A DNA stretch of 64,000 bases from Oryzias latipes. Lineage: Eukaryota; Chordata; Actinopteri; Beloniformes; Adrianichthyidae. The DNA lies in contig NC_019876.2 of NCBI RefSeq assembly GCF_002234675.1, forward strand, positions 21,937,161 to 22,001,160, given 5' to 3'. Of this stretch, positions 3,425-60,500 are shown piece after piece; the stretch's first letter is position 1; each line of letters begins with the position of its first letter. The notes under the pieces are model-generated. The model ran no database searches. It was not told the origin of the DNA and saw nothing but the letters and a program-made list of their open reading frames with translations. The position numbers and the translations under genes were made by a program.

Positions 3425-5095
3425 TTTATTGACACAATTGCAAATGTCAACAGGAGAAACTTGAGGGAGGAGGAGGAAGAGGCAGGAGGAGGTGTCTCCA
3501 CAGCATCATCTGGAACTCCTCAGCATCCCAGCAGACATCAGCAGGCTTCACTAACTAGTTAGTTCTTTAGATTTTTGCTAGGTCAGTTAACCAGCACAGT
3601 AAAGCAGTCCTCATAAGTCCATCTTCCTCTTAGCTGTCAGCCAAAAGTCCGACTGATTGGAAACATCTGTCCTCACCCACGCCTCCTCCTCTTCCTCCTC
3701 CACGACTCCCCAGATGACTGAGCTCATTGTTTCAGCATCCCCGCCCACTTTCTTTACTCTTGCACACGCATGAGGCGCACGCCCACACACACAGCTAACC
3801 TCCGTAACCGTCTTCTCCTCGTCCTCGCTCTCATGTTTTCTAAAAGAACAAAAGTCTGGTAACATCCACAGAAAGGATGGATGGATGGATGGATGGATGG
3901 ATGGATGGATGATTTACTTCAGCATTCATGTTCTCAGAGAAAGGCTGAAACAAAGATGAACTGATGGATCCCTCCAAACCACGAGAACCTCCCCATGGAG
4001 AAAGGTTTCTGGTCCTTCACACCTGTTCTTTGGTAGCTGAGGGTTGGAACTCACCTGTTGGACCTTCAGAGGCTTCTACTTCCTCTGAAACTGCGGGAAC
4101 GCTTAAATGATTGAAGCGCCTATGTCCTTGTCATGTCCTTCTGAACGGCTTTAAAACTGCTATGAGGAACTGGGCCCCAGGATGCTTCATCTTGGATGGG
4201 GGGGGGGGGGGGGCAGAGATGGTGTTTAGTTTGTTCACTGCGCAAGTGTGTTCTGATGTGAGCCAGTCACTGAGACACCACTGAGGTTTGCAGGATTTTC
4301 CCCAAACACTTCCTGCTGCAGCGTGAGTCCAGAACACCTGGAGAAAACACGCTTGTGCACGCTCGCGCATGCTTGTGCACGCTCGTGCACAATCATGCGC
4401 ACACTGTATTTGTGTATCTGATATAAAATAAATGGTTTAGTTTGGGGCACAAACAGATTCAGGTAATTATCATTCGTGAACATGCGCAGGTGCAGTCCGA
4501 ACATCAAGCGTGCAAAGACTGTTCAGTGCACACATGCGCACACACACACATACACACACACACGTAAACACACAGACCCCCACTGAGGTAGATTTTCCAT
4601 GCCAGGTCTGTGCAGCTTCAGCAGCCGGTGTCCCAGCAGCCACCATATGGTCGGACACTAAAGTCAGGACACAGAGACATGGGGAGGAGGGGGAGGCACA
4701 AGATACAGAAAAATCATAAATATATATGGGGGACTCACAGGGCTGCTTTTTTGGGGGGGCGGGGGGGGGGGTAACAGGAGGGAGAAGGGAGGGGGAGCAG
4801 ACAGAAAAGGAAGGGTGAGGTTAAAAAAAGGATGGTAGCTGGTAAAGAACAAAACAAACAACCAGGTAAACAGAACCCGACCCAGTCCTCATTTTCACCA
4901 AAACCACCAGCTTCTTTAGCCATGGCCAACTGCCAGAGTGTCCACCCTATGACTAACCGTGGGTTTGAATTCACTTCAATAATAAGAGATCTAAAAAATT
5001 GAAAATAAAGAAAGCTTTGTCAGTGATAAAAAAGACGTGCATACCATACATCCATAGTCTTTGGCAGATAGGCTCTGAGGTCTTGCATGCTGGTG
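3425..5095 (-). other. unassigned exon-like signals, minus strand
   Basis: Several short open segments are bounded by good splice signals on the minus strand. One at about 5044-5093 follows TATCCCACCAG and encodes MQDLRAYLPKTMDV. One at about 4057-4092 encodes SEEVEASEGPT between CCCGCAG and G|GTGAGT. One at about 3807-3850 follows TTTTGTTCTTTTAG and encodes KHESEDEEKTVTE. A further frame ends at 3611 with an acidic run and MDL-stop, and a minus-strand AATAAA lies near 3426. Together this resembles the 3' part of a gene lying downstream of rps4x on the same strand. I cannot join the phases convincingly or recognise the product, and chance is a real alternative. Confidence 0.25.
3875..3911. 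repeat. (GGAT)n microsatellite
   Basis: Nine perfect tetranucleotide units. (ATGG)n tracts in fish often mark the 3' tail of a non-LTR element, but no element body is visible here. Confidence 0.9.
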
Positions 5096-11302: not shown

Positions 11303-11643
11303 ACTTTGTCAACAAAAAAATATAAAAAGACAACGACAGAAAGAAAAGGACACTCCACACAGCGCAACAACTCCGGACGCCACAAAGACAGCGCGACAGC
11401 GGGATGGATTGCAATCAAAGCGCCTCTGTCAGTGTCATCCAACAAGCGGAGGTAAGCACCCGGAAGCGACGGGCGCTCGGTCAGGAATCCAGCTTAGTGA
11501 AACTCTGAACCGCTATCTGGTGAAAATGAAGAATCAAACGGTGTATGTTTAACTAAGTCAAGATTGTATGGCAATCCCCGCACGAATGTTGCGCTGAGCA
11601 AGTCATTGCAGAATCTGTAAAGCTGCTCAAACAACGGAGTCGA

Positions 11644-13149
11644 ATGAATGAAAGTATTGCGCAACACCACGCAAGTGACGAAGGGAGAATGAGTGAACCA
11701 GAGAATGAGTGCTCTGCGACGGAAACGAATGAAAAAAGACAAATTAAACTGACTGTGAAAGCTCTCAGTAATAAAATTGAAAGGCTTCAAAAGGAACGCA
11801 AATTTGCTGTGAATAAAATAAAGGGCCTTATTCCAGAAATAAAGAAACTTATGACAAACGAAAAGAATGCTGAACATGTTCAGTCTCTCATGGTGGACTT
11901 GACAGAACTGTGCGCAAACGCTGGTGAATCACATGCAACGTTACTCCCTCTTTTGCCACAGGATGAACAAAATAGTCAAGATGAGTGGTTTTCTAATATT
12001 CGGGATCACAGCAATGCTTTCTTAGGAGGTGTGACACAATGGCTTGGTGACGTTAAGGAACAAAAGGATGTTTCTGCTGCAACATATAATTTGCTCTCAA
12101 ACATAAACATACATCAAATCACGAATCAAGAAATGGAGGAAAATGATGACATAAAACCCAGTGACAGTGTGTCAAATGTGGAGCAAAAATCAACAAGATC
12201 ACATTCTGGAAAGTCAATAACGTCCTCTACAACTTCATCATGCATTAAAACAGAAGCAGATCTGGCTGCTTTAATGGCAAAACAAGAGGTTTTAAAACAA
12301 AGACATCAACTGGAAGAGGAGGAAGAACGACTTCGTCAAAGAAAAGAACAACTTAAATTGGAAGAGGAAATCTGTGCACACAAGGCCAAACTGAAAGTGC
12401 TGAAATCACAAAGTATTGCAAGTCAAAGGCTTTCTAAAGCATCAGATGGAATGAACTCCTATTTGGACAGACAAACAACAAGACAAAAATCTCTGGATTG
12501 GAAAGCTGACTCATTTGTACCATTTTCACATCAAACAGCTCAACAGGATCACCAGGCTACAGGGACAAAGCCTAAAGAGAAAGCTGTGGGGGCTGAAACT
12601 ACAATGATTAAAGACCAAAGACATGGAAAAGAAACAGTTCCCTCAGTCCATCCAAGTTTCCACATCCAAGACACCAGAAACACAAACACTGTGATGGACA
12701 ATCAACAATCAATGTTGGACATAATGAGAAATCAAAATGAAATAACAATGCTTCTGATGGATCAGCAATGTGTTTCATCTTTGCCGAAGCGAGATGTACC
12801 TGTGTTTGACGGAGATCTACTACAGTACCACATGTTCATGAGAGCATTTGAGAACAACGTAGAGAAAAGGACTGATGATAACAGTGATCGACTTTATTTC
12901 TTGGAACAGTATACCAAAGGTTTGGAAATGAACACAAGGTGGCAGCAGCTTACATGGACAAGGTTCTTTCATGGCCTTCAATTAAAACAGAAGATGCTAA
13001 GGCTCTTCAAGAATATAGTCTTTTTCTCAGAAGCTGTTGCAATGTTATGGAGGATTTGCATTACCTGCATGATCTTAATGTGCCTGCTAACATGCTCAGT
13101 GTTATCAAAAAACTTCCCTACAAGTTTAGAGACAAATGGAGGACAGTAG
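11644..13149 (+). pseudogene. BEL/Pao gag, N-terminal part (frame-broken)
   Basis: A 501-codon frame. Residues about 200-265 form a strongly charged coiled coil (EEEEERLRQRKEQLKLEEEI). Residues about 380-425 resemble the start of the DUF1759 gag region (VPVFDGDLLQYHMFMRAF, then RLYFLEQYTKG). At about 12930 the frame leaves the expected protein: roughly 80-100 bp of the DUF1759 region appear to be missing and the rest of gag continues in another frame. The C-terminal 70 or so residues are therefore out-of-frame sequence. Confidence 0.75.
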
Positions 13150-14834
13150 CTTGTGAACTACAGGAAAGAACTGGACAAAGGTGCAAGATATATGACATCA
13201 CAGAGTTCATAGAAAAACAAGTAAGAGTCTTAACGGATCCAGTGTTTGGAAACATACAGGATGTTCCACCTGCAACTAGGAGTTTGACCAAACCAGAGTC
13301 ACATATCCGTTTTGGAAGGAAAGAAAGCAGTTTTGCTACAACAGTTACACCAGTGAATAAAATATTAAAAGCTGAAACCCAGGAAAAGAAATTTACCCAA
13401 ACGTTGAGAAAGAAATGTCTCTTTTGTGGAAAAGAACATACTTTGGATTCATGTGAACAGTTGGAAAAGAAATCCAGAAAGGAGAAGATTGGCTTCTTGA
13501 GAGAAAAGGGTGTTTGCTTTGGCTGTCTGTGTATTGGACACATCAGTAAAGATTGCAAAAGGCGCATCTCGTGTGCTAAATGTGGCTTTAAACATCCAAC
13601 TCTGCTTCACATTACTTCACATAGGAAAGAGGAGACTCAAGACGTTACAGAAACTGAAAAGAAACCAGAGGTTCAGCAAATGAGAACTTTGGTGTCCAAT
13701 GGTCTTACTGGGGCTGGTGATCAAGACTGCAAATTACCAATAGTTCCAGTTCAAGTGAAACTCAACAAAGGAAGCAAGATTGTCACAACATATGCTTTTT
13801 TGGATCAAGGAAGTACTGCGGTGTTCTGTACCGACAGTTTAATGCACAGACTCAATGTGGAAGGACGGAAAACACACATTCTTCTCAGGACAATGGGTCA
13901 AGAGAAAATTGTGGACCGTCATGTTGTCAATGGACTAGAGGTAGCAGCCATTCAAGGAAATGATTTTGTTGCTATTCCTAAAACATACACACAACCAAGC
14001 ATTGCAGTGCAGAAATGTAATATACCGCTGCAAAAGGATGTGCAAAATTGGCCTTATCTAAAGGACATTTACTTACCACAAATAAATGAAGAGATTGAAC
14101 TTCTAATAGGCGTCAATGTTCCCAAAGCTTTGGAACCACTGCAAGTGATCCAAAGTGAACATGATGGACCTTTTGCTATAAGAACAATGCTCGGTTGGAC
14201 AATAAATGGACCGCTGGGAAGTAACTGTGGAAATACAATGGATCAACGACAACCAGAACTGTCAGTAAACAGAGTGTCTGTTGTACAGATGGATGAACTT
14301 TGGCAAAAGCAATTCCAAATTGATTTTCCTGAATGCAGTATGGATGAACAGTCTGGATTGTCACAAGAAGACCAACAATTTATGGAGACAGTTTCAAATT
14401 CAGTAAACATCATAAATGGACACTATCAGATTGGTTTACCACTGCGAAACAAAAACGTCTGCATGCCTAACAACAAAGATTTAGCTCTGCAGCGTGTAGT
14501 TCATTTAAAGAAAAGACTCCAAAGAGACTGTGTTTTCTATACCACCAAAGGTTACGCTGAACAGGTACCAGAGCTGAAGCGTTCTGATGGGAAAATGTGG
14601 TATATCCCACATCATGGGGTTTACCACCCAGTTAAGAAAAAGTTGAAGGTTGTTTTTGACTGTGCTGCAACTTTTCAAGGCAGATCTCTTAGCACCCAGA
14701 AATTAATGGGTTCTGGGAAAAGTACTACAGACTTTCCCAGACAGAAGAGGATTAGTACGTCAAGTTCGAGTCAAGACAAAGACCAGCTGCTTGGAACGAC
14801 CAATTACAAAGATGGTTTTACTGCTGGAGGCTGA
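12939..14834 (+). pseudogene. BEL/Pao gag C-terminus, zinc knuckles, protease, truncated RT/IN
   Basis: In order, this frame encodes the rest of the gag region (ALQEYSLFLRSCCNVMED), a cysteine-rich nucleocapsid-like segment (CLFCGKEHTLDSC, then CFGCLCIGHISKDC), an aspartic protease motif (AFLDQGSTAVFC), and the post-protease motif MLGWTINGPLG. The N-terminal part of reverse transcriptase follows, up to VVFDCAATFQGRSL. The sequence then jumps, and the last 40 or so codons are read in the wrong frame over what is recognisably the end of the integrase region in the +1 frame (ERPITKMVLLLEAENKKE, stop near 14850). The deletion breakpoint is near 14690-14710. Confidence 0.8.
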
Positions 14835-19479: not shown

Positions 19480-19995
19480 TCAGCATCCAGCCGGCACATC
19501 GCACATGAAATCAAACTCGTTCTGTCCCAGCCAGAGTTCAGGGAGCTCGTTGGCTCGGTCCAGACCCAGTTCCACCACCAGGGACATGAGGACCTCCTCG
19601 TCCACCAAGTCAAAGTCAATCATGCTTCCTGCTCCAGAGTCTTGGCCCCCAATGCCTGCAGACAGTCCCAGGAGCTGGTTCCCTGTGCCAGACTGTGGGC
19701 CCTCAAAGGCCTTCTGAGCTCCAGGAAGCCCGGGCAGGTTCTGGTAGTGGGAGTTGAGCTTCTGCAGCTGCATGGTGGCGATGAGATGTGGACCTGTCTG
19801 CAAGGAGATGGGCTGCAGTTTGGAGAATGGTGCAGACAACAGGGATGCCCCAGGTGTTGAGGTGGGGCCAGCTGATGGGGAGAGGGGCACGGTGGAGGCT
19901 TTGGAGGAAGGATAGTGCAGGAAGGAGGTCAAAGGGCAGGAGCGGAGGTCTTTCATTTCAATGGGGACCTTTCCAGTGACCAGGAGGAATGTCAT
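19480..19995 (-). CDS. cited1: Cbp/p300-interacting transactivator with ED-rich tail, CITED1-like
   Basis: Transcriptional co-regulator that binds the CH1 domain of CBP/p300. The C-terminus carries the CITED conserved region 2 ([20 protein letters not shown], then [13 protein letters not shown]), ending PAGC. '[19 protein letters not shown]' and the PxxC end fit CITED1 better than CITED2. A second conserved motif, [11 protein letters not shown], lies mid-protein. The coding part is in one exon whose acceptor (TTCTGCTTGCAG) lies at 20014. Two in-frame starts are possible: 19995 (171 aa, MTFLLVTGK) or 19956 (158 aa, MKDLRSCP). The first gives an odd hydrophobic N-terminus, so the shorter start is a real alternative. 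The neighbours rps4x and hdac8 match the human CITED1 setting. Confidence 0.9.
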
Positions 19996-20013
19996 CACCA
20001 GTAAAACCAGAAC

Positions 20014-20653
<640 letters not shown>

Positions 20654-26665: not shown

Positions 26666-27262
26666 GCAAGTGGACATAAATTCTGTGAAAAGAGAATGCT
26701 GCAGTTGGTTACCCATCCCTCTGCATCTGCAAAAATAAATTCTTCCAAACCAAATGAAGATTTTTTTTTTTAAACAAAAGTATCAGTGTTGTCATAGCCA
26801 CCACCAACAACTAGCAGAAGGTCATATAGGTCACAGGTCTGTGATGGAGGGTCCAGGACAGGTTCATCACTGTCAACATTTAAATGATACAGTTGGACCC
26901 AGGGCCGACTCTGGACGTAACTGCAGCTTCCTCTGTACCACACACTACAGCAGAGACTTTTTTCTCTCAGTGCTGAACTTAAAATGTTCGTCTTTGCACA
27001 TGTTCTTGGTTTGTTAAAGACACCCCCCGCAATGTTTTTTTTAACATGTTCTTGTTGCAATTTTAGTCAAAATTACATTTCTGAGTATTTTTTTGATTCA
27101 AATCATGGTGAATCGGGAGCAAACAGAAAAAAATGCATTTGGAAAAAGTTTTTTAGCGGCAGGTTGGAAGCTCTTTATGCATCATAACGGAGCGGCTAGA
27201 TCCTCGTATTCCTCGTCTGTGCTGGCATTTGGCTCAAAACTCTACAGCTGGATAGCTCCGAT

Positions 27263-28435
27263 CAATGAGTTCTATCGCTAGAGGAGACATCACGTGATTC
27301 CTCATGTGAGGAGAGCACCGCCATCTTGGTGAGGTCAAGTCAATGCTGCAGTGCATGCATGTGAACACATTTTTTGACCAAATGCCAGTTCATTGTGCGT
27401 GTTTCAACTGCCAAAGTCGAAGAAATTAGTCCACGAAGGAGGAACGCATAACATTTCACAGGTAGGTACTATAGTTTTTTTTCTTTTAAAGCTGCAGATA
27501 TGTGTACTATTTATTAATAGTACACATGTTGACATGCATGATGCTGCAGGGCTATTATCAACATGCTGCATGACGGACGTATAATTTTCTGTTGGCATAA
27601 ATGTAAACTTCATTGTGTTAAACCTGTATACAGTATAATAATACTAGGCTATTATAGTAATATAGATTTATACATCTCTGACTCAGTGACTGAACTTTTC
27701 TTGGAGGTTTCCAATGGACTCAGACTTAAGGAAAAAGTGGGCCTTAGCAATAAAAAGAGCATTACTGTGGTACCAACTAGCAATGCAGTCTAGCTGTTCA
27801 AAACATTTTGTGGAACCAGATTTTGACAAGAATGTCCAGACTGTTCGCTTGAAACCCGACACCATAGCATCTGTGTTACACATGAATCAGTAGTGTAAAT
27901 CTATTGTTTTTCGTTGTTTTTTTTAGGGTAAATCTATTGTTAACTTTTGTACTTTTTGTTGACTCATTTTGATTGATTTATTTGTTATTATTAATTGATT
28001 TATTTATTTGTTATTATTAATTGACTTATTTATTTATTATTACTGACTTACTATTGATTTATTATTAATATTATTATAATTATTGACTTATTGGGCTTTT
28101 CTAAATAATAAAAATAACATGTGAAAGAGGTGTAAAACTTCTAAATGTTTAGAAATTATTTTTTAAAATTCTTTGTAATAATTTTTTATTTGTAAGAAGT
28201 CCTGCAACTATGAATTTTTTATTAAAGTTTGAGCTTTTAAGTCTGTTTAACAACAGCAAATGATGTGTGTGTGTGTATATATAAGTTATATAAAAGCTAT
28301 TGAGATGCCACTAAAGGCTATAGAAAGCATTGTCTGATGTGGGCGCCGCCGACCTCACCAAGATGGCGTCGCGCTCCGCCACCGTTGGCCAGGCTTCCCA
28401 AGCGGGCGTGTCTCCTCTAGCGATAGAACTTATTG
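27263..28435 (+). mobile_element. non-autonomous P-element-like (THAP) transposon
   Basis: A 1,173-bp insertion with inverted ends CAATRAGTTCTATCGCTAGA plus further matching bases (GGAGACA), and subterminal inverted blocks containing GCCATCTTGGTGAGGTC on both sides. The flanks are GCTCCGAT and GCTCCGGT, an 8-bp duplication with one mismatch. P-type transposons make 8-bp duplications and begin with CA. Inside are two exons of a THAP DNA-binding domain and nothing resembling the catalytic part of the transposase. The rest is AT-rich filler, including a 'ttattaattgatttattta' tract. Confidence 0.8.
27382..27893 (+). pseudogene. THAP zinc-finger remnant of P-like transposase
   Basis: Exon 1 (27382-27461) encodes MPVHCACFNCQ, with the first two cysteines five apart as in THAP1, then ERITFH before the donor AG|GTAGGT. 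Exon 2 (27707-27893) follows TTGGAG and reads [17 protein letters not shown], then CSKHF (the second C-x2-H pair), and [11 protein letters not shown] in place of the usual AVPTIF end. The conserved P, W, C2CH residues and intron position are all present. An in-frame TAG at codon 16 of exon 1 breaks it, and a stop closes exon 2 at 27891-27893. THAP domains bind transposon ends or promoters. Here only the DNA-binding module remains. Confidence 0.75.
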
Positions 28436-28637
28436 GCTCCGGTCTTGCTTGCCATTTTTGTTGCACTGGTAATGTTAGGTAGGGGTTCTGAGGGGCTGTA
28501 AGCTAGTGACAGAGAGTGTAGACAACGGGATGATAGGAAATGAGGGCAGGCTTCCTTCACGCCAAAACAACAGAATAATAAATAAAAGAGCACTGGAAAC
28601 ACGTTGAAAATAGATACAAAATGACCAGAGTGGGACT

Positions 28638-29733
28638 TCAATGTCTCTGAAGGAAAGCGGATGTACAGAACTTGATGTCAGACTTTAACCTCAGCTTCAG
28701 CATATAGGTGTGAATCACACTTTTCTTTATTTCCTATGCAGAAACAGCTCCGACCTTTGAACCTTCCTTTGACTGTTGTTGGGCTAACCTCCACGTCCAA
28801 ACTGCACCCAAATACCAACATGCTGCATTTAAGGGTCTGCGCTCCTCTTGTGTGCTCCCAATACTGCAGATGAAGAACATTTGTGTAAAAAATAAAATTA
28901 AAAATAAGGCAAAGCTACACTTCTACCCATCAGCAAAGGTAATGATGCATCATTGGGTAGAAATGTGCTGTGGTCCAACAGCATCAAAGACAAAACAGCC
29001 AAAAGTTCTGTTCCTTTTGATGCTGCGGTAGATCAGTTAAGACAGTAAAATCTAGATTGACTTTTATCTATAAGAACATGAACAGAACCCAGCCACGTCT
29101 GTTCCAACATGTGACGTGTGCTCATGGGTCTCACGCTCAGGTACAGGTGTTCCAGACCACACCGCCTCCATGCAAACATGAGCACCTGCTGTGAGGGACT
29201 GTGTGACTGAGCTGAGCCTCAGAACCTGCCGCTCTGCTGGGACCTTCTCTGCACAAAAAGGTCTCATGGAGGCAGACGTCGGAGAACAAGAACTTTCTCG
29301 GAACTTTAGAGCTGTAACTGTGCTGCTGCAGCTCAAACACACAAACCTCCTAAAACAACGTCGGGAAGTCGGAAGCAGAAGCTCATTTTCACTGTTGGTT
29401 CAGAAAAGACCAAAATATCTTCTTATACCTACATGTGATTGGTGGATGGACCCCCTCCCATTCCAACATTATAAACAAACATACACAACATAAAAAATAT
29501 ATTAAAAAAAAAAAAATTACAAACAGCAGCACTCCTGTTACATTTTCTCCCTTAAAGACTGGTAATATTTTGTAATGCCTCCTTGTTCTCTAGTCCCCCT
29601 CCCTCGCTCAGTGCTGTCCTCGGGGCAGGAGTGGTCCGCTCCACATTGTCCTCATTAGAGCAGCAGAGAGGGGATTGGTTCAGAACCGTCAGGCTTAAAT
29701 GGGCTGGAGTGTGAGGCCAGAGGCATCCGGGTC
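28638..29733 (-). other. hdac8 3' UTR and downstream sequence
   Basis: Region following the hdac8 stop codon on the minus strand. Candidate AATAAA signals include one near 28725. No other gene is visible. The exact transcript end cannot be fixed. Confidence 0.4.
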
Positions 29734-45667: not shown

Positions 45668-48600
45668 CTAGAAGAACATGGTCTGCAGGGACTTGCGGAC
45701 TGTTGCCATCTCCTGTTGTTGCTGCGGAAACAATTTCAAACGTTATGTCATGTCCCACAGATCTAAACAGGGTCAACGCAGCTTTTGGAGGCATCTGTTG
45801 CTTCTTTTGCTTTTATTTAAACGTTTCTCAATCTGTACCAGTTAAGAAATATTTTAATGCTCACTGTGACGACTAAATGATTCCATTAAAAGCAATATGA
45901 AGGTGTGAAAAAGAAGGGTAACAGAGAACCACAACAAGAACAAATACTGTCAGGTTATCAACTCAGACTGAAATATACTAAAATCCTAAGTAACATGTGA
46001 CAATCTGAAGTTTAGAGATTTAGTATAGTCTAGGTTCTAATGCAAAAGAGACAAAAAAAGATGATTGTTCTTCCCAGTCATTTACACCAAGGTGGTCAAA
46101 CTTATGAAAAAATGACTGTCATGATCTCTGGAAGCAGCAAGGACACTTTCAGGGTTTGCATCCCACTTCTTCTCGGAGCATAAATACTTATGCAGCTGTC
46201 TTTTAGGTGATGAAGCTCAGTGAAGCAGGAGTAGAACGGGACTTCACACCGACTGAACTTTCATAACACAATCTACTCACTGCTTCCATGAGTAGTTTCT
46301 TCTGCAGCGTGGCCATTTCTCGTTTCAGTTCTTCCTGTGCTGCTTGCAGGAACTCGTTCTGACTCTTCTCCATCTCCTCCATGTTCTACAGGGAACAGAA
46401 AGAATGTCCTTGACTAGACGTCATGCAGCAGCTACGTCTTTACAAACATCAATTAAAGGAATTTGTTTCTTTAGACAGTCTACCGCCAACTGGGTCATGA
46501 GACACAAACTCAACCAGAACAGAACCAAAACCGTCTGTGCTGTTTTCTTGGTGACACCCTTAAAGACCCACACACGGATGAAATCAGTGTTTTGGTTGTT
46601 TTTAACATGTTCTTATGGTATTTTTCTGATGCTGAAGGACATATATAAAGAAAATTAAGCTTAAAATGGCATTTCTGAAGATTTCTTGATTCAAATCATT
46701 GTGAATCAGGAGCAGACAAAAAAAAGCAGGTCGATACAGATTGTATTTATGATGTAGAAAATACTCTGAGCTGAACACAAGCTCCCTGCTCTGCTCCATT
46801 CTGATGTATCCACTTGTAGATAAATAGATTCATGTACGTCTTTCTTTCCTTTGTCTGAGCTGGAATCTGTCTCTAAACTCTCCAGCTGGATGGCTCCAAT
46901 GTTGCTTGACATGTTTGTTGCACCGCTAATGTTAGGTTGGGGTGTGAGGGGCTGTAAGCTAGCAGAAGAGAGTGTAAACAGATGATGGGAATTAGGGGCG
47001 GGCTTACTCCACGCGGACAGTCTCCCCCACCACAACTCAGAGGGGAATTTCTAATAAACTTCTGCCGCTCTGCAGAAACTATGTCTGAGAAAACTACAGG
47101 TTTTTGGATTTGGTCTAAAAACTGCATCTTCATAACTCAAAGACCTCTGGGAACAATTTTAAAATAGATCAAAAGATGATGGGAGTGGAACTTTAACACA
47201 AAAACAGCCTACCTTCACAAACTGATCATACAACTCTCGGACTACTTTCAGCTTCTGGTTCTGTGCAACTCTGGCCTGCTGCAGGACTTTCTGCTGCTGC
47301 CGGAACAAATTCTGTCAAATTAAGAAAAGTCAAGGACATTTCATCACAAAACCAGCTGTTGAGCTTGTGAAAGTACGTTTGTGTAGATAAAATATTAACA
47401 ACATCTAAAAGAAGATCAAACTTCAAGCTCAAACATCATAACCGAGTCAAATGTGATAAACCATAAGAGGAGACTGACGCTGAGCTTCTCCTCCTGCTCT
47501 TCGGTGCGATGTGCTTCAGCCTCCCACTGCTGAAAGGCAGTAGACACCCGCTGAGAGAACTGCTGCGTTGTCTTCTTCCTGCACACACACATCATCTGTC
47601 AGTGTGATGACAAACAACAGACACCGATCCATTCACACAATAAACATATGTTCGCTTGTATTTTTTCTTAATTCTGTGACTGAATATTTTAGATTGCATT
47701 GTTTTTTTTATAGCTCTTATAGGTTTTCCAAAAGGTTACAGAAGAAGGAAACCTCTGGCCATGGTAGTTGCTCCACAGATGCTCCAGTTTGTGCTGACTT
47801 CCTGTCATGTGGTTCTTAGTCAGACACTCCAGGTGCTTTTGCTTGACCTGCATCGCCTTGTTGATATCAGCTGTAGGAACAAGGAAAACAGCAGCATTTC
47901 TTATAGTTTCATGATAACTTCAGTTAAATGTTAAGCAGAATGTTAAGTAGATATTATTCAGAGCCTAATTTCCCATGTTTACTTGACTTATTATAATTCT
48001 AATAAACTTTAGTTTTCCCCACTGAAAGTTGAGACATCCAGATAAATCAGGTAAGTTTATAACCATGGTGCACGTCATTGAAACCCACTCCCATCATCTT
48101 TTGTCTGCATGATTGTTATGAAATTATCATATCCAAAATAAAAAAAAACTGTGACGTTTTCAAAGACAAAGTTTCTACAGAGCGGAGAAGAAATTTGCCT
48201 TTACGTTGTAGGCTGGACCGTTGCCGTGGAGCAACACCCCCACCTTTCCCGTCACCTAAAACTGAACTCTCTGTTTATACGCTCCCCCACTACCCAACAG
48301 CACCTCACAACCCTAACCTAACATTACCAGTGCATCCCAGCAAAATTGCTGGATCATGTTTTTTGTGTGGATCACAAAAAACTGGATCACAGTTTTGATC
48401 CAGATTCCAGCTCAGTCGAGGAAAACAAAGACGTTCATGAATCTATTTGTCTACAAGTGGATGCATCAGAATGGAGCAGAGCAGGGAGTTTGGGCTCATT
48501 TTCAGAGCTTTTTTTTCAAGCCAAATTTTTTTCATCTGCTCCTGACTCACAACAATTTGAATAAAGAAATACTCAAAAGTGGAATTTTGTGTCTAATTTT

Positions 48601-51584: not shown

Positions 51585-54500
51585 ATGAGGAGCCGAAGCA
51601 ACTCCGGCGTGAAGCTGGACAACTATGCCCGGATCGTCCAGCAGACCATCCTGCAGCACCAGGTCAGGGTCACGCCGTTTGCTCTTCTAGCGCTCAGGGA
51701 GGCGGACTGAAGCCGGACCAGAGCCGCTACTCCTGGCACTAGGGAAGGGGGTGTTTCACAAGGTTTTGAGTTTTTAAAACTTTTGCTGCGCGCTCATCGT
51801 GCACGCTAGTGCGTCGGGAACGCGCTCTCCGTTAAATTCTTGTGTTCCTCTGAAGAAGCTGGGACGCTTTTATGATTTGAATGAACCAAAATGTAAAATA
51901 AAAATGAGTCAAAGTAAAGAGGATTTATCTCTCTTTAAAGACACCATACCACAGTTTCCTTTTTTTTTTAAAGTTTTCACAGTGGGCTTTTATTTGGGGG
52001 TATGGCTTTTTTTTTTTTAGAAAAAAACAAACAAAAACAACCTGTGTTGGTTTTTAGGACATAGTTTCTGCAGAGCAGTAGTAGTTCATGAGAAATTCAC
52101 CTCTGACTTGTGGATGCTCCGCTGGTGCAGAGTAAGCCCGACCTCACTTCCCATCATCCATCTGTTTACACTCTCTTTCACTATCTTACATCCCAACCTA
52201 ACATTGGTGTTGTAACAAAAACGGTGAGCAATATCAGAGCCATACAGCTGTACAGTTTTAAGCCAGATTCCAGCTCAGTCGAGGAAAACAAAGACCTACA
52301 TGGATCTAGTCGTCTACAAGTGGATGCATCAGAATGGAGCGGAGCAGGAACATTTTTAGCCTGCCGTAGCTTTTTCAAATTGCATTTTTTTTTGCATCTG
52401 ATCCTGATTCTCAATGATTTGAATAAAAAATACTCTAAAATTCAATTTTAAGATAAAAAAAATGCACAGAACATGTTAGAAACATTTTCATTGGAGTGGG
52501 TCTTTCAGAGTAAATAGTCTCTCAGTAAAACCTCACAGTGGAGGGGCTTTTCTGCTGCTTCTGAAGGACATTTTTCTCCTGAGGGGAGCGTGTTCCCATA
52601 GGATCCACTTTCCACCCCCCCCTCCCCTGCTAGTGTTCTCACTAGGGGTCATTTGATGCCACCCTGAAGCTGCTGAACGTTGTTTCCCTCTGCCAGGCTG
52701 CAGATTTGCTTTCTTTCATTGTTTGCTGCTCGATTTTGTTATTCTGCAGAGATCTAAAGGATGGAAGAATCCACTCATCACTTTAACCCCCCCCCCCCCC
52801 CCCCCCTTCAGATTTAATGCTGGACGGAACTCTTCTGTTCCACCATCAAATATTTGGGGGTGGGGGGAACCATGTAGAAAAAAGAAGGACCAGCAAAATG
52901 ATAACATAACAAGCTTTACATTAAAAAATCTGTTATGTAATTAGAAAGTAAAGTTTCAATTCATCATCATCATCAAGAAATGCTGGATGATGCTTTTTGG
53001 ATGTGGAAAATATTTCCTGTCAACATTAACTCACACAGGTTGGTAATTCTGCACACCTGAAGTGAATCGTGTCACAGAAACTTATGATGTAAAATCCCTT
53101 TTATATATAAAAAAAAATGTTCTCATGTTTCCTGGTCGACTTTTTATATTTAAACTTAGGCCTGCGATATCAAGCTGTGCAATAAACTTACCTTAAATGT
53201 GCTAAAACAATCTTATAGCAGCTTAAAGTATTTAGAGGAATCAAACAAATCCCTTTATGCATTTGACCAATCAGATGGAGCCCTTCACATTGTTGACCAA
53301 TCGGATGCAGCTCTTATATGTTACAACAGTTAGATGTTCGTCTCCTATGTAAAAAAGGCTCATTTGGTGTATAATTTAAGGTAAGTTGACTCATTTTTAA
53401 ATTAAGCTGTTGCAGTGGAATGGAAACTATGTTTTTGGTTGTTTTGCCATTTTTTCAAGTTATATCGTCATCGAAATATTGATCATTAGTATCGCTAATC
53501 GCCAGTTTTCCGCATATAGTGCAGCCCTACTTAGACATAAAGGTTGTGTCAGAGCAAGAGCAGCAATGCTCCCCGACTGAAGCTCCTGCCTATGGTTTTA
53601 CTTCACAAAGTAGAGTTTTTTTCTCCCAGAGCTTCATCATTGAGGCTAACCAGGTCTCTGTTGGAGACACAGAGCTCCTCAGTTCAACTTTCTGATTGTT
53701 TCAGGAACATCTGGGCAGGACAAACCTGCTGGATCCACCTATAATAAGATAAGTGAGGACCTGAAATCTGTGCAAATTTGAGCTACATTAAAATCTAAAC
53801 AAAACATTTAAAAATGCACCCCCACCCACAGTTGCTATGAGGATGAAGTATCTGCCAAAATCCTACAGAAAATATACATCCATCACTCAGTCATTCTAAT
53901 GGTCAGAATAACCATTATTACTCTGACACCTTTTTTTTAAAACATGTTTTTACCAATTCTAATTTTTTTTATGATATTTTGTCTGTAGTGCAAGTTATTC
54001 AAGTTCTAAACTGACCAATCAGATTATTCAATAAAAGTAAGTGGTGCTTGCTGACCCCGTTGACTGTAAGAGAACTGGAGCGAGTGAGTGAGATTCATTC
54101 ACATTATGCTGCTTTCTGTAATGTAATGGTATATAATGACGAGCAGGAAGATGACATCTTTAAATATTCAAATCAAGTTAAATCAGGTCTGACCTCTGTA
54201 CAGTAACCTATTCATCGAGTTTTTCATGACATTATGAGCAATAAATAATGAATCCTATATCCCACTTATTTCAATAATTACAACTATGTTTAGTGAAAGC
54301 AGTCGATCTAATCATCTATAGACCTCAAAGCCATAAATGAGATTTGGATGGACACTAATCGAATGTCAGAGCCTTAAACCACACAGTTGCATCAACAAAT
54401 CGTTGCATTGACTCAATGATACTTCTGTTTGAGCTGTCTGCAGCAGCTGGAAGAATTGCTGCCTGCTTTCCATAAATCCGGATGAATCTGCACGTAAATA

Positions 54501-57500
54501 CAATAAAGCAGAGGTTTTGTGACTGGAGCTGCAGGAACGTGGCTGTGTTCAGTCAGAATTTGGAACATTGACAGGACCAGCATGATGCGGCTCGTCTCAT
54601 CTGTCCATGTCCGACAGGATCCAGTAACGGGTCTCCTTCCGGGCAGCTTGGAGCAGCCAGATGCATGGGTGAGGGACAACGTCTACAGCATCGTCTCAGT
54701 GTGGGCCCTCAGCCTGGCCTACAGGAAAAATGCCGACCGGGACGAGGACAAGGCCAAGGCCTACGAGCTGGAGCAGGTGTGTGTGTATTAGTGTGTGCAT
54801 GGATGGTTTGGTCCCATGTTCCTTGAACCGTCTTTCCATGTCCTGCAGAGTGTGGTGAAGCTCATGAGAGGTGTCCTCCAGTGCATTATGAGACAGGTAA
54901 GGAGCTTTTTTTCCCCACGCCAAATATTCAGTGTTTGCATAAAATTCACCGTTTTTCTATTGATGTTCATTCATAAGCACATATTATGGGATGCGGAATG
55001 AAAAACTCTCAGGGGAATCTCATGCAGAAACATTTCAAGTGTCGTCTACTTTAATTTCCATATCTGATTCTATTATCCTTGTGCAAAAATCAGAAATCTG
55101 CAGAAGCATCAAAATAATTTTTATCTATGTTCACTCCCCCCTCGGCAACACACGCTATAGCAACCACTTCCAATGTGAATGTGTGTAAATGCGCATTATG
55201 GGATTCCGTGTTTGAAACTCACGTTCATCCTTAGCTACGCTAGTTTCTACAACCGTCTGAGGCTCTACGTGCAAAACGCACAGCCATTAAACGCGTGCTA
55301 TAACTTAAACCAGGTCAGACTTTTGACCAATGAGGACTTAATTTGGTAGTGAGGTATGGATGGCGTCCCTTTCTCATTAATGGAAGTGCTTCCTGTTTGA
55401 AAACTTATCATGAAGGAGAAATTAGTAATTGTGGTTTGTGCCGTGCTTGAATTCAATGACTTGACAATGTCTTTCATATATTGGAATAGAGCTGTGAAAG
55501 AAAAAGCCTGGAGCATTTCACACCAAACCTCCTCCAACTGTAGGTGGTGGACATGAGCTAATATTGGGTATTGACAGTCCAGTGTGAACACCATGGGCTT
55601 AATCAGGGGACATTTTTTGATTCATGGGCCACAAAGGGTTCTAAAATTTGACAGAAGGGCTGGACCAGGAACTGATACATGGAATGTTTTGGTAATCCAC
55701 CGCATAAGAGAAAGATATAACATAGAATCAGGACAAAAACATGCTTTAACTTTGAAACTTAATATGCAGTTGAAACCAGAAGTTTACATACACCACATAA
55801 AAACACACATATGCTCTTTTTTCTCACTGTCAGACATGAAACAAAAGTAAACTTTTCCTGTTGTAGGTCAGTTACAATTAACAAAATTATTTCTATTTGC
55901 CAAATGCCAGAATAAAGAAAGAGAGGAGGGTTTTTTTAGACAAGTTTTTACTACTTTTGTCAAAGTCAAAAGTTTACATTCATTTCCTTAGTATTTGCTA
56001 CAATTGCCTTTAAACTACAGTATTTAGGTCAAACGTCTTAGATATCCTTTCACAAGCTTCTCACAGGATTTGGTAGGAATTCTGGCCCATTCCTTCTGAC
56101 AGAACTGGTGTAACTGAGCCGAGTTTGTAGGTCTCTTTGCAGGTACCCACCTTTTCAGCTCTGACCATGAATGTTCAATAGGATTTAGATCAGAGCTCTG
56201 TGATGGCCACTCCAAAACATTGACTTTGCTATCCTCCAGCCACTTAGTAACCGGTTTGGCAGTACGCTTCGGGTCATTGTCCTTTTGGAAGAACCAAGCT
56301 TCAACTTTCTGGCTGATGTTTTCGGTGCAGCAGACCCTCCAGCAGCAAAGCAATCCCACAACATGATGCTACCACCCCCATGTTTTACAGTTGGGATGGC
56401 GTTCCGAGGCCTGCAGACTTTCCCCTTTTTCCTCCAAACATAAAGATGGTCATTGTGGCCAAACAGTTCAATTTTAATTTTGTCTGACACAAGGACATGT
56501 CTCCAAAAATTAAAGTCTTTATCCTTGTGCTCATTAGCAAACTTTAATCTGGCTTTTTTATGTTTCCTATTGAGAAATGGCTTCTTCCTGACAGAGAAGC
56601 CTTTCAGCCCATGTCTGTAAAGTTCTCGTTTCACTATTGATAATGACACATTCGTACCATCTTCAGCCAGCATCTTCACAACATCTTTTTCCTTCAACCT
56701 TGGGTTGTCCTAGACGTATCGGACCAAAGTACGTTCATCTCTGGGACACAGAACCCGTCTCCTTCCTAATGGCTGGACATTCCCATGATGTTTATACTTG
56801 CATACAGTTCTCTGAACAGATGAACGTGGCACGTTCAGGCATCTGGAAATTGTACCCAAGAATGAACCAGAGTTGTGCAAATCCATGATGTCTTTCTAAT
56901 ATCTTGACTGATTTTGACTTCTGCCATGATGTGCTTCAAATGTGCCCTAATAAATATCCACAGGTGTGTTTCTAATGAACTCAAATGCTGTCAATAAACT
57001 TATCAGAAGCTTCCAAAGAGATGACATCATCATCAGATTGTTTAAAGGCATAGTGATCTTTGCGTATGTAAACTTTTGACTTTGATAAAAGTAGTAAAAA
57101 CTTGTCTAAAAAAACCCTAGTCTCTTTATTCTGGCATTTAGCAAATAGAAATTTTGTTAATTGTAACTGACCTACAACAGGAAAAGTTAACTATTGTTTT
57201 ATGTCTGATGGTGAGAAAAAAGAGCATATGTATGTTTTTATGTGGTGTATGTAAACTTCTGGTTTCAACTTTATATACCTAAAAACAGAACTTTTTGGAG
57301 TTTTTATTTCAAAACTGTGGCTCTTGTTCTCATTTTAGTGCCAATTGCACCAATAGGTTGGTGTCCCTCACGTAAATCAGGAAACTTAAGAGAAATGCTG
57401 CGTTAACGCGGTTGTTGGAATGATCGGAAAAATGACTTGCTGACTTGAAATGTGAGAAAAACAACAAATCTCCCAACGCCACATGAAAACAGAATAACTT

Positions 57501-60500
57501 TATGTTTTTAACAAAGGTTAATGTATTTATAATGCACCATCTATAAACGGAGATAAAAAACAGTTATAAGGACATCAATGAATTACCTTAGATTCTATCC
57601 ATCCATCCATCCATCCATCCATCCATCCATCCATCCATCCATCCATCCATCCATCCATCCATCCATCCATCTTCCTCCATTGGCCCAGTGGGACATGCCC
57701 AGAACATCTCCCCAGAGAGGCGTCCAGTGGTCATCCGGACTTGATGCTCGAGCCACCTTGACTAACCCCTTTCGATGGGGAGGAGAAGCGGTTCTACCCC
57801 GAGCTCTCCCCGGGTGACAGAACTTCTCCCCCTAAAGCTAGGGGAGCGCCCAGCCACCCAATGGAGGAAGGTCATTTCAACCGCTTGTATTCGGGACCTT
57901 GTTCGTTTGGTCATGAAAAATATTATAAAAAAGATAACAATATAATTAATTCCTTTGGCGGGTCAGATTAAATGTTTTTTTAGGGTAAAGGCACGTTTAG
58001 CCCGTTCTGTTCCACTTCATGTGCCTGGTTTGTCTGTAGCTTTAGACCTATTTTTTCTAGAAACAGAAACATAAATCTAAAGCTCCAACTCTGCAGTTTT
58101 ATCCTAGTTTTACTCTGGTACATAATTTCCAGGCGCGTGCCCCTTCAGTTTGGTTTAGTTGGTGTCAAAAAATGTGGGAGGGGCTAAAATCTACATGTCT
58201 CCTTTCAAGTCTCCCTGCAGTGTTTGAAAATGTTTTGATCAAATCCTGTTCAGTGTTTTTGTCAATAAAGTTTGTCTCATTTGAGCTTTTTTGTTTATGG
58301 GTTGTCCCACCAGTGTCAGGAAAACGTTCTTTTGTCGCGGCGTCACCTGGGGCGACTCCCAGATTTCTGGATGGGGTTACTTAATAATGAATTAATCACT
58401 TCTGCTGTCAACCCAATGAAAATGCTTCTTCTGGATCTGCAGCTAGACAAAGTGGAGAAGTTCAAATACAGCCGAAGTACCAAGGACTCACTTCACGCCA
58501 AGTACAACCCACGCACCTGTGCTACAGTGGTCGGGGACCACCAGTGGGGTCACCTGCAGGTGGACGCAACCTCGCTCTTCCTGCTCTTCCTCGCTCAGAT
58601 GACGGCATCCGGTAGGATGCAGATATTTGCAGAGGCTGCTTCACTCAGCGTTTGTGTGTTTCTTCAGAGTCGATGTTCTCATCCGTGTTCATGTGTTTTT
58701 GCAGGTCTGCACATCATCTACACGCAGGATGAGGTGGACGTCGTTCAGAACCTCATGTTCTACATCGAGGCAGCTTACAAAGTGGCTGTGAGTCTGCATT
58801 CCTCTGCTGTGCAGACGGCAAACACACAAAGCCCGCTCAGTTAATATGTCTCCTGCTTGTGCCCAGGATTATGGGATGTGGGAGAGGGGGGACAAAACCA
58901 ACCAGGGCATCACAGAGATCAATGCCAGCTCCATCGGCATGGCCAAGGTTAGTGTGCACACACACAAACACACACACACAGAGCGCGTCAGCGGCTCAGG
59001 CTGAGTGAAGGCTGGACAGCTGCAGCCGTAAAAATATCAGGCACAGCTTCTGCTGCTGCGTCACTGCAGCGTCTGACATTTAAATGACCTTTGACATCAG
59101 GTATTCTGCAGAACCCGACAAGGCAAATGGAAACTGTACAGAACATGGAGATGATCACGGTGCAGGTTATTATTCCTAAGGGGGCCTGCCCGTTAGAGTT
59201 TTCGGGTTGGGGTGCATCTCACATCCGTTATTCAGAAGTTATGGTCACATTTGTGTTTGTGAGGCTCCACTTGGTCTTTGGTTCTCTCATGGGGGTGTCG
59301 GGTTCTCAGGTCTGCTCACAAATAAGGCAGAACTCCAAGTGCTCAACACAGGAAGCACAGACACGCAAAGTGTTCAGCTTTGTTAATGACAAAAGCTTTT
59401 TTAGGATTCACAAGTCCACTGTCACCTTCTGCAACACCAAGATGATATCAAACACTGCGCTGCCTTTATCACTCATATCAAATCAAACTTTATAAAATAT
59501 TTATAAAAAAAAACTCTTCTCATACATTGCAGAATCAAAAACAAAAACAGACACAAAATTAAACCCGAAAACCCAACCCAACCTTTACCCCCCTCCTCTC
59601 AATTAACAAATTCTTAGAAAAGTAACTTCTAAAAGATATAGTCTATATGTGGGATTTTCCTCTCTTTTTTAACTGCAACGTTCCCTCGCTATATCACGTT
59701 TCACCTTTCATAAACTTGCTGTTTCCTGAATTTTTTTGCAGTGCAATTTTGCAGGTTTTTTTTCCCGTTCTGCGTCCTGATTGGCTGGAGACTTTGTCAA
59801 TCAATCTCTTCTGTCCTGTGTCTTTTGTACAGATTCGGGCAACCCTCCAGACCTACATCAATCTTTAAATGCTATCAGATCTTTGTTTTCTTACTCTATA
59901 GTACCTGACTTATGTTTAAACTTTGAGAGTTTAAAGAAAAATGTGAAATGTGAAAATGTCTGCCAAACCACCTCAACTAATCAGTAAAAGCTGATTCGCT
60001 GCAGCAACCCTTAACGGGATAATCCAAAAGATGAGCAACATCCTATCTAAAGGACATTTGTATCTTTAAAAAAACGTTAGTTAGTGCAGAATAATTTAGA
60101 GCTTTTGAAATAACATTCAGGCCTTGTGTACACACTTTGAAAATCATTGTTTTGATGTCAAATATTTTTAGCGACCTCATTAGAGTTTAAACAGAAACAA
60201 GTGTTTTTTTCTACGAGTGAACATACATACACAGACACACACACACACACACACACACACTGTTCTGTCCTTTGTGCCACTGATAGAAATCAATTCAGCT
60301 TCCACCTTTAGTTCTCAAGAAATCCCAAACAGCATTTATTTAATTCCATGTTATGGTTTTTACTAACGGTACTTAATTGCATCATAGTAATAATCGACAT
60401 TATTGTAGCTATTGGGGATCTCCTGCTGATTTTCTCAGTATTTTTTGCTTTATTTATCTTACTTTGACATTTCAGCCTCATATGCAGACATTTATTTACT

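Follow-up and report, generated by a model that had tools for sequence, protein, structure and literature searches.

Izanagi, described by Herpin et al. (2010; PMC2820524), is a non-autonomous P element of medaka that was found in the promoter of dmrt1bY, the male-determining gene of this fish, where it supplied a Dmrt1-responsive silencer (PMC2820524, PMC5789577). The original description gives it three putative exons (PMC2820524). Two other P-type systems invite comparison. Pdre of zebrafish resembles Izanagi in its 8-bp target-site duplications, its subterminal inverted repeats, and the presence of internally deleted copies beside a full-length element of the THAP9 type, but has 13-bp ends of other sequence and 12-bp subterminal repeats (PMC10983969, PMC7776569). 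Drosophila P and its derivative KP likewise belong to the P superfamily, with 8-bp duplications and internal deletion derivatives, whereas the 31-bp ends, 11-bp subterminal repeats, and 2.9-kb full length of Drosophila P differ from those of the element described here (PMC7776569).

The element analysed here lies on contig C18 in a 64,000-nucleotide stretch of the medaka genome, referred to as the window. A sequence-only reading of the window had described it as a P-type deletion derivative that keeps a THAP domain and is nested in a MITE. Judged by its sequence, the element is a copy of the already described Izanagi and does not constitute a new discovery; its novelty falls away because Izanagi has been in print since 2010 (PMC2820524).

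Genome search and copies compared

The genome searched comprises 734 Mb in 25 contigs. A search with the window element yielded 961 first-look candidates, 40 of which were scored; these 40, among them the window copy, contained 66 aligned stretches. The copies compared are these best 40 of 961 candidates (39 fetched plus the window copy); they match the window copy best and do not form a random sample. L023 and L025 have the same flanks and are one duplicated locus; they are merged (n = 39) for divergence rates, window-rank conservation, the tree, and the exact-string count of exon 2, and are both counted (n = 40) for duplications, breakpoints, exon status, the Dmrt1 site, and ligand-complete frames.

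Results and Discussion

The coordinates of the element, its parts, and its insertion site are collected in Table 1.

Table 1. Features of the Izanagi copy and of its insertion site, in window coordinates.
Feature	Coordinates	Strand	Remarks
Izanagi copy, non-autonomous P-type transposon	27263..28435	+	1,173 bp; ends, duplication, genome matches
5' terminal inverted repeat	27263..27289	+	27 bp; 25/27 identical to published Izanagi end
3' terminal inverted repeat	28409..28435	-	27 bp; 24/27 identical to published Izanagi end
5' subterminal inverted repeat, putative transposase-binding region	27310..27336	+	27 bp; function inferred
3' subterminal inverted repeat	28351..28377	-	27 bp
Left target-site duplication GCTCCGAT	27255..27262	.	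adjoins element 5' end
Right target-site duplication GCTCCGGT	28436..28443	.	7/8 bases equal to left one
THAP exon 1 remnant	27382..27461	+	retains two Cys ligands; codon 16 is an in-frame stop; followed by GT donor
THAP exon 2 remnant	27707..27893	+	Cys-x2-His kept; AG acceptor before
Internal deletion junction	27877..27879	+	approximate; element position 615 = L012 position 627
Position of Izanagi Dmrt1 site	28202..28216	+	2 mismatches to published 15-mer CTGCAACAATGCATT
Left half of interrupted dispersed repeat	27038..27262	.	approximate limit
Right half of interrupted dispersed repeat	28444..28653	.	approximate limit

The window element has in common with Izanagi the 27-bp ends, the 8-bp target-site duplication, the THAP exons, the position of the Dmrt1 site, and the length class, and it shows the Izanagi trait of a THAP domain in putative exons without a transposase. 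It differs from the published element in being shorter than 1,316 bp, in two or three bases of the ends, in two positions of the Dmrt1 site, and in lacking the Rex1 insert of the dmrt1bY copy; two exons are resolved in it. At their best positions in the window copy, the four published Izanagi primers have 3 to 10 mismatches. The shorter length, the altered Dmrt1 site, and the primer mismatches together argue that this is a diverged Izanagi copy. A new transposon family is ruled out by the match to Izanagi.

The limits proposed in the sequence-only reading are exact, and both its near-perfect 8-bp duplication and its subterminal inverted blocks are borne out. The inverted termini are present as well, but are longer than had been stated. 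The terminal repeats are 96% complementary and the subterminal repeats 89%. The 5' subterminal repeat has accumulated 0.022 substitutions per site compared with 0.055 in intron 1 (39 copies), a modest conservation, 24th among 573 windows, which the splice-acceptor region around 425–441 equals. Chance inverted repeats are ruled out, the element being multi-copy and having target-site duplications.

When the flanks of the element are joined, the resulting sequence can be aligned through the insertion point with further copies of the interrupted repeat in the window, at 46853–47014 (80.8% over 167 bp) and at 52131–52482 (67.7% over 372 bp), and therefore reveals an empty site. A simple self-comparison of the 719 joined host bases found no inverted ends of this repeat, the limits of which are approximate; nesting within a dispersed repeat thus stands, but the MITE label is not supported. 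The repeat sits between CITED-like and phosphorylase-kinase-like frames. The former is a CITED-family open frame at 19480–20079 (−; Pfam PF04487, 3.6e-30), and the latter, at 58269–58844 (+), matches PF00723 (glycosyl hydrolase 15) at 1.8e-18 and is presumably a phosphorylase kinase alpha exon. At 11557–14834 (+), the window also contains long frames that resemble those of a retroelement and lie in two overlapping phases; we take them to be BEL/Pao-like, and they include an aspartyl protease match below cut-off. A Tc1/mariner-like transposase remnant is present at 56185–56709 (−; PF01498, 1.9e-16).

Copies and target-site duplications

Both ends are recognisable (at most 8 mismatches) in 27 of the best 40 of 961 candidates, so the possibility, allowed for in the sequence-only reading, that other copies would lack these termini did not materialise. 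That reading had also looked to other copies for confirmation of the 8-bp duplication. Agreement of at least 6 of 8 bases is found in 18 of the 27 two-ended copies among the best 40 of 961, ten of them with 8/8, compared with only 16 of 702 mispaired flank pairs in the control; the remaining copies have no such duplication, or have one end lost or misplaced. The count is 18 of 23 under a stricter limit of 3 mismatches per end and 17 of 26 without the duplicated locus L025. At bases 1–8 the flanks agree in 18 to 22 of 27 copies, at base 9 in only 7 of 27. The 5' flank exhibits a preference of the form G(T)....(A)C (G1 in 26, T2 in 21, A7 in 20, and C8 in 28 of 40 copies). In a tree of 39 copies and the full-length relative L012 the inner branches are short and the outer branches long, as expected for an old burst.

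A full-length relative

A profile search of the genome for the P-element HTH family PF12017 yielded three matches, on C21, C9, and C2. The match on C21, L012, is an element of 5,387 bp whose two ends are of the Izanagi type, each having 1 mismatch to the degenerate end, and is flanked on both sides by GTTTGACA, a perfect 8-bp duplication. Its domain pieces occur in transposase order (PF05485, PF12017, PF21787, PF21788, PF21789), with E-values of 2.6e-10 for THAP, 1.3e-28 for the RNase H N-terminal piece, and 6.4e-10 for the C-terminal piece; the best piece of the GTP-binding insertion scores 3.9e-16. All of these pieces pass their Pfam cut-offs except the last one of the GTP-binding insertion; a THAP9 C-terminal match also falls short of its cut-off. 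L012 thus contains the transposase type of the P superfamily (THAP, HTH, and RNase H with a GTP-binding insertion), though in broken form: a TAG stop interrupts the HTH piece, and the RNase H region has about 200 bp extra relative to the second copy, L013 on C9, which keeps its 3' end and has lost its 5' end. The full-length copy that the sequence-only reading had hoped for therefore exists, with the same ends but with a broken transposase, and no working transposase source was found in L012 or L013 as their sequences stand. The C2 match (L009, L014) was rejected as an Izanagi relative because it has no Izanagi end (best 9/27 mismatches). A phmmer search of the PDB with the RNase H piece of L010 gave no match at E up to 0.1. 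In the 3' part of L040, L046, and L050, local tandem duplications of the segment at approximately 5171–5246 of L012 are present.

Aligned to L012, the first matching block ends at 615–627 in all 40 of the best 40 of 961 candidates (exactly at 627 in 34), and every copy matches L012 again farther on, in the 3' part. The next block starts directly after the first at exactly L012 position 4689 in 22 of 40 copies and at 4690–4696 in 3 more, counts that take in short blocks and become smaller if only blocks longer than 50 bases are admitted. The other 15 copies do not restart at 4689–4696, an AT-rich stretch blurring the alignment; the window copy restarts at 4707. L022 has a 48-base match within the deleted part of L012. 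Because the break at 615–627 is common to all 40 copies and 22 restart at exactly 4689, a single founder deletion of about 4.06 kb would be the simplest origin of the short family. The description of the window element as a P-type deletion derivative keeping THAP exons is thus supported and is now tied to L012 through the same ends.

The ends, the duplications, the shared break point, the full-length relative, and the damage can be accommodated in one history. A P element of autonomous type, about 5.4 kb long and equipped with THAP, HTH, and RNase H with its GTP-binding insertion, would have lost about 4 kb between 627 and 4689, giving rise to one founder that retained both termini and the pair of THAP exons. 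The founder would have spread by cut-and-paste with transposase made elsewhere (in trans), each insertion producing an 8-bp target duplication, and the window copy would have inserted into a dispersed repeat and decayed afterwards. The whole account, that of an Izanagi copy derived by founder deletion from a P element, amplified in trans, and later decayed, is assigned a probability of roughly 0.96.

State of the THAP exons and the repressor question

Exon 2 of the window copy alone matches the Pfam THAP family (5.8e-07; 30.6 bits, cut-off 23.9), and its frame matches THAP2 (1.9e-05) and, weakly, THAP1 (0.08, 0.15); the short exon 1 alone gave no Pfam match. The claim of two THAP exons without a catalytic region accordingly holds for the exons themselves, but exon 1 is broken. 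Among the best 40 of 961 candidates, exon 1 is stop-free at normal length in 28, 20 of which have an ATG; exon 1 is followed by a GT donor in 35, and 39 have an AG acceptor ahead of exon 2. The codon-16 stop, TAG, occurs in 8 of 39 copies scattered over the tree rather than in one clade, for which recurrent change, gene conversion, or an old polymorphism among mobile copies are alternative explanations. Exact string comparison finds an exon 2 form one base shorter in 22 of 39 copies, and alignment finds it in 23; since this form occurs with different flanks, either copies with a broken THAP frame were mobile or the change recurred.

The Drosophila KP derivative keeps the THAP end. In Drosophila, short P elements with internal deletions frequently code for repressors, one being the 207-aa KP protein (PMC7776569); in making a known repressor, KP differs from the window element. 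The sequence-only reading had suggested that active copies of the deletion derivative could supply such a protein, and the corresponding proposal is that the Izanagi family or its founder encodes, or encoded, a THAP-only protein that binds the ends of full-length copies and represses them. Only 5 of the best 40 of 961 copies (L024, L031, L041, L042, and L043) preserve the GT donor, the AG acceptor, and a joined frame that is open and has the four zinc ligands; L012 also has such a frame. The open THAP frame of L041 closes at a stop just past the junction. In the first 60 bases of exon 2, third codon positions evolve faster (0.082 compared with 0.043 and 0.033), which runs contrary to a weak view of the repressor and may come from shared ancestry. 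Against the proposal, the joined frame extends to at least 80 residues before a stop in 12 copies but reaches a stop before residue 80 in 28 of the best 40 of 961; exon 1, at 0.063 substitutions per site, evolves as fast as intron 1, at 0.055, and changes least at third codon positions (0.043 compared with 0.076 and 0.068). The stops, the unprotected exon 1, and the shortened exon 2 therefore make the repressor idea weak. For the window copy, a repressor role is excluded as the sequence stands, and for the family or its founder it is very improbable. Equally improbable is the more elaborate version, in which the founder deletion would have made a THAP-only repressor in one step by way of the stop past the junction, its product would have influenced how the full-length family rose and fell, and a few intact copies may produce it even now.

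The Dmrt1 site and other readings

It is very unlikely that the window copy acts as a present-day Dmrt1-responsive silencer like the dmrt1bY copy. Of the best 40 of 961 copies, 28 contain the Dmrt1 15-mer with no more than 2 mismatches and 4 contain it exactly, two of these four (L023 and L025) being one duplicated locus; by ChIP, Dmrt1bY binds Izanagi sites in testis (PMC2820524). The window copy, however, has 2 mismatches in this site, a match equalled by 3 of 500 mononucleotide shuffles, and no link to a nearby promoter emerged.

That the THAP exons are parts of a host gene with coincidental repeats around them, as the splice signals beside both exons might suggest and as the sequence-only reading had considered, is rejected as next to impossible, since the exons recur at the same place inside the inverted repeats in all 40 of the best 40 of 961 copies and in L012.

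Conclusions

By itself, the window copy is an ordinary member of Izanagi. What the analysis adds to the known element is the full-length relative L012 and the shared break point, neither of which was encountered in searches of open-licence PMC papers, which showed no report of a full-length Izanagi. The full-length relative and the likely single founder deletion give the origin of Izanagi a testable history.
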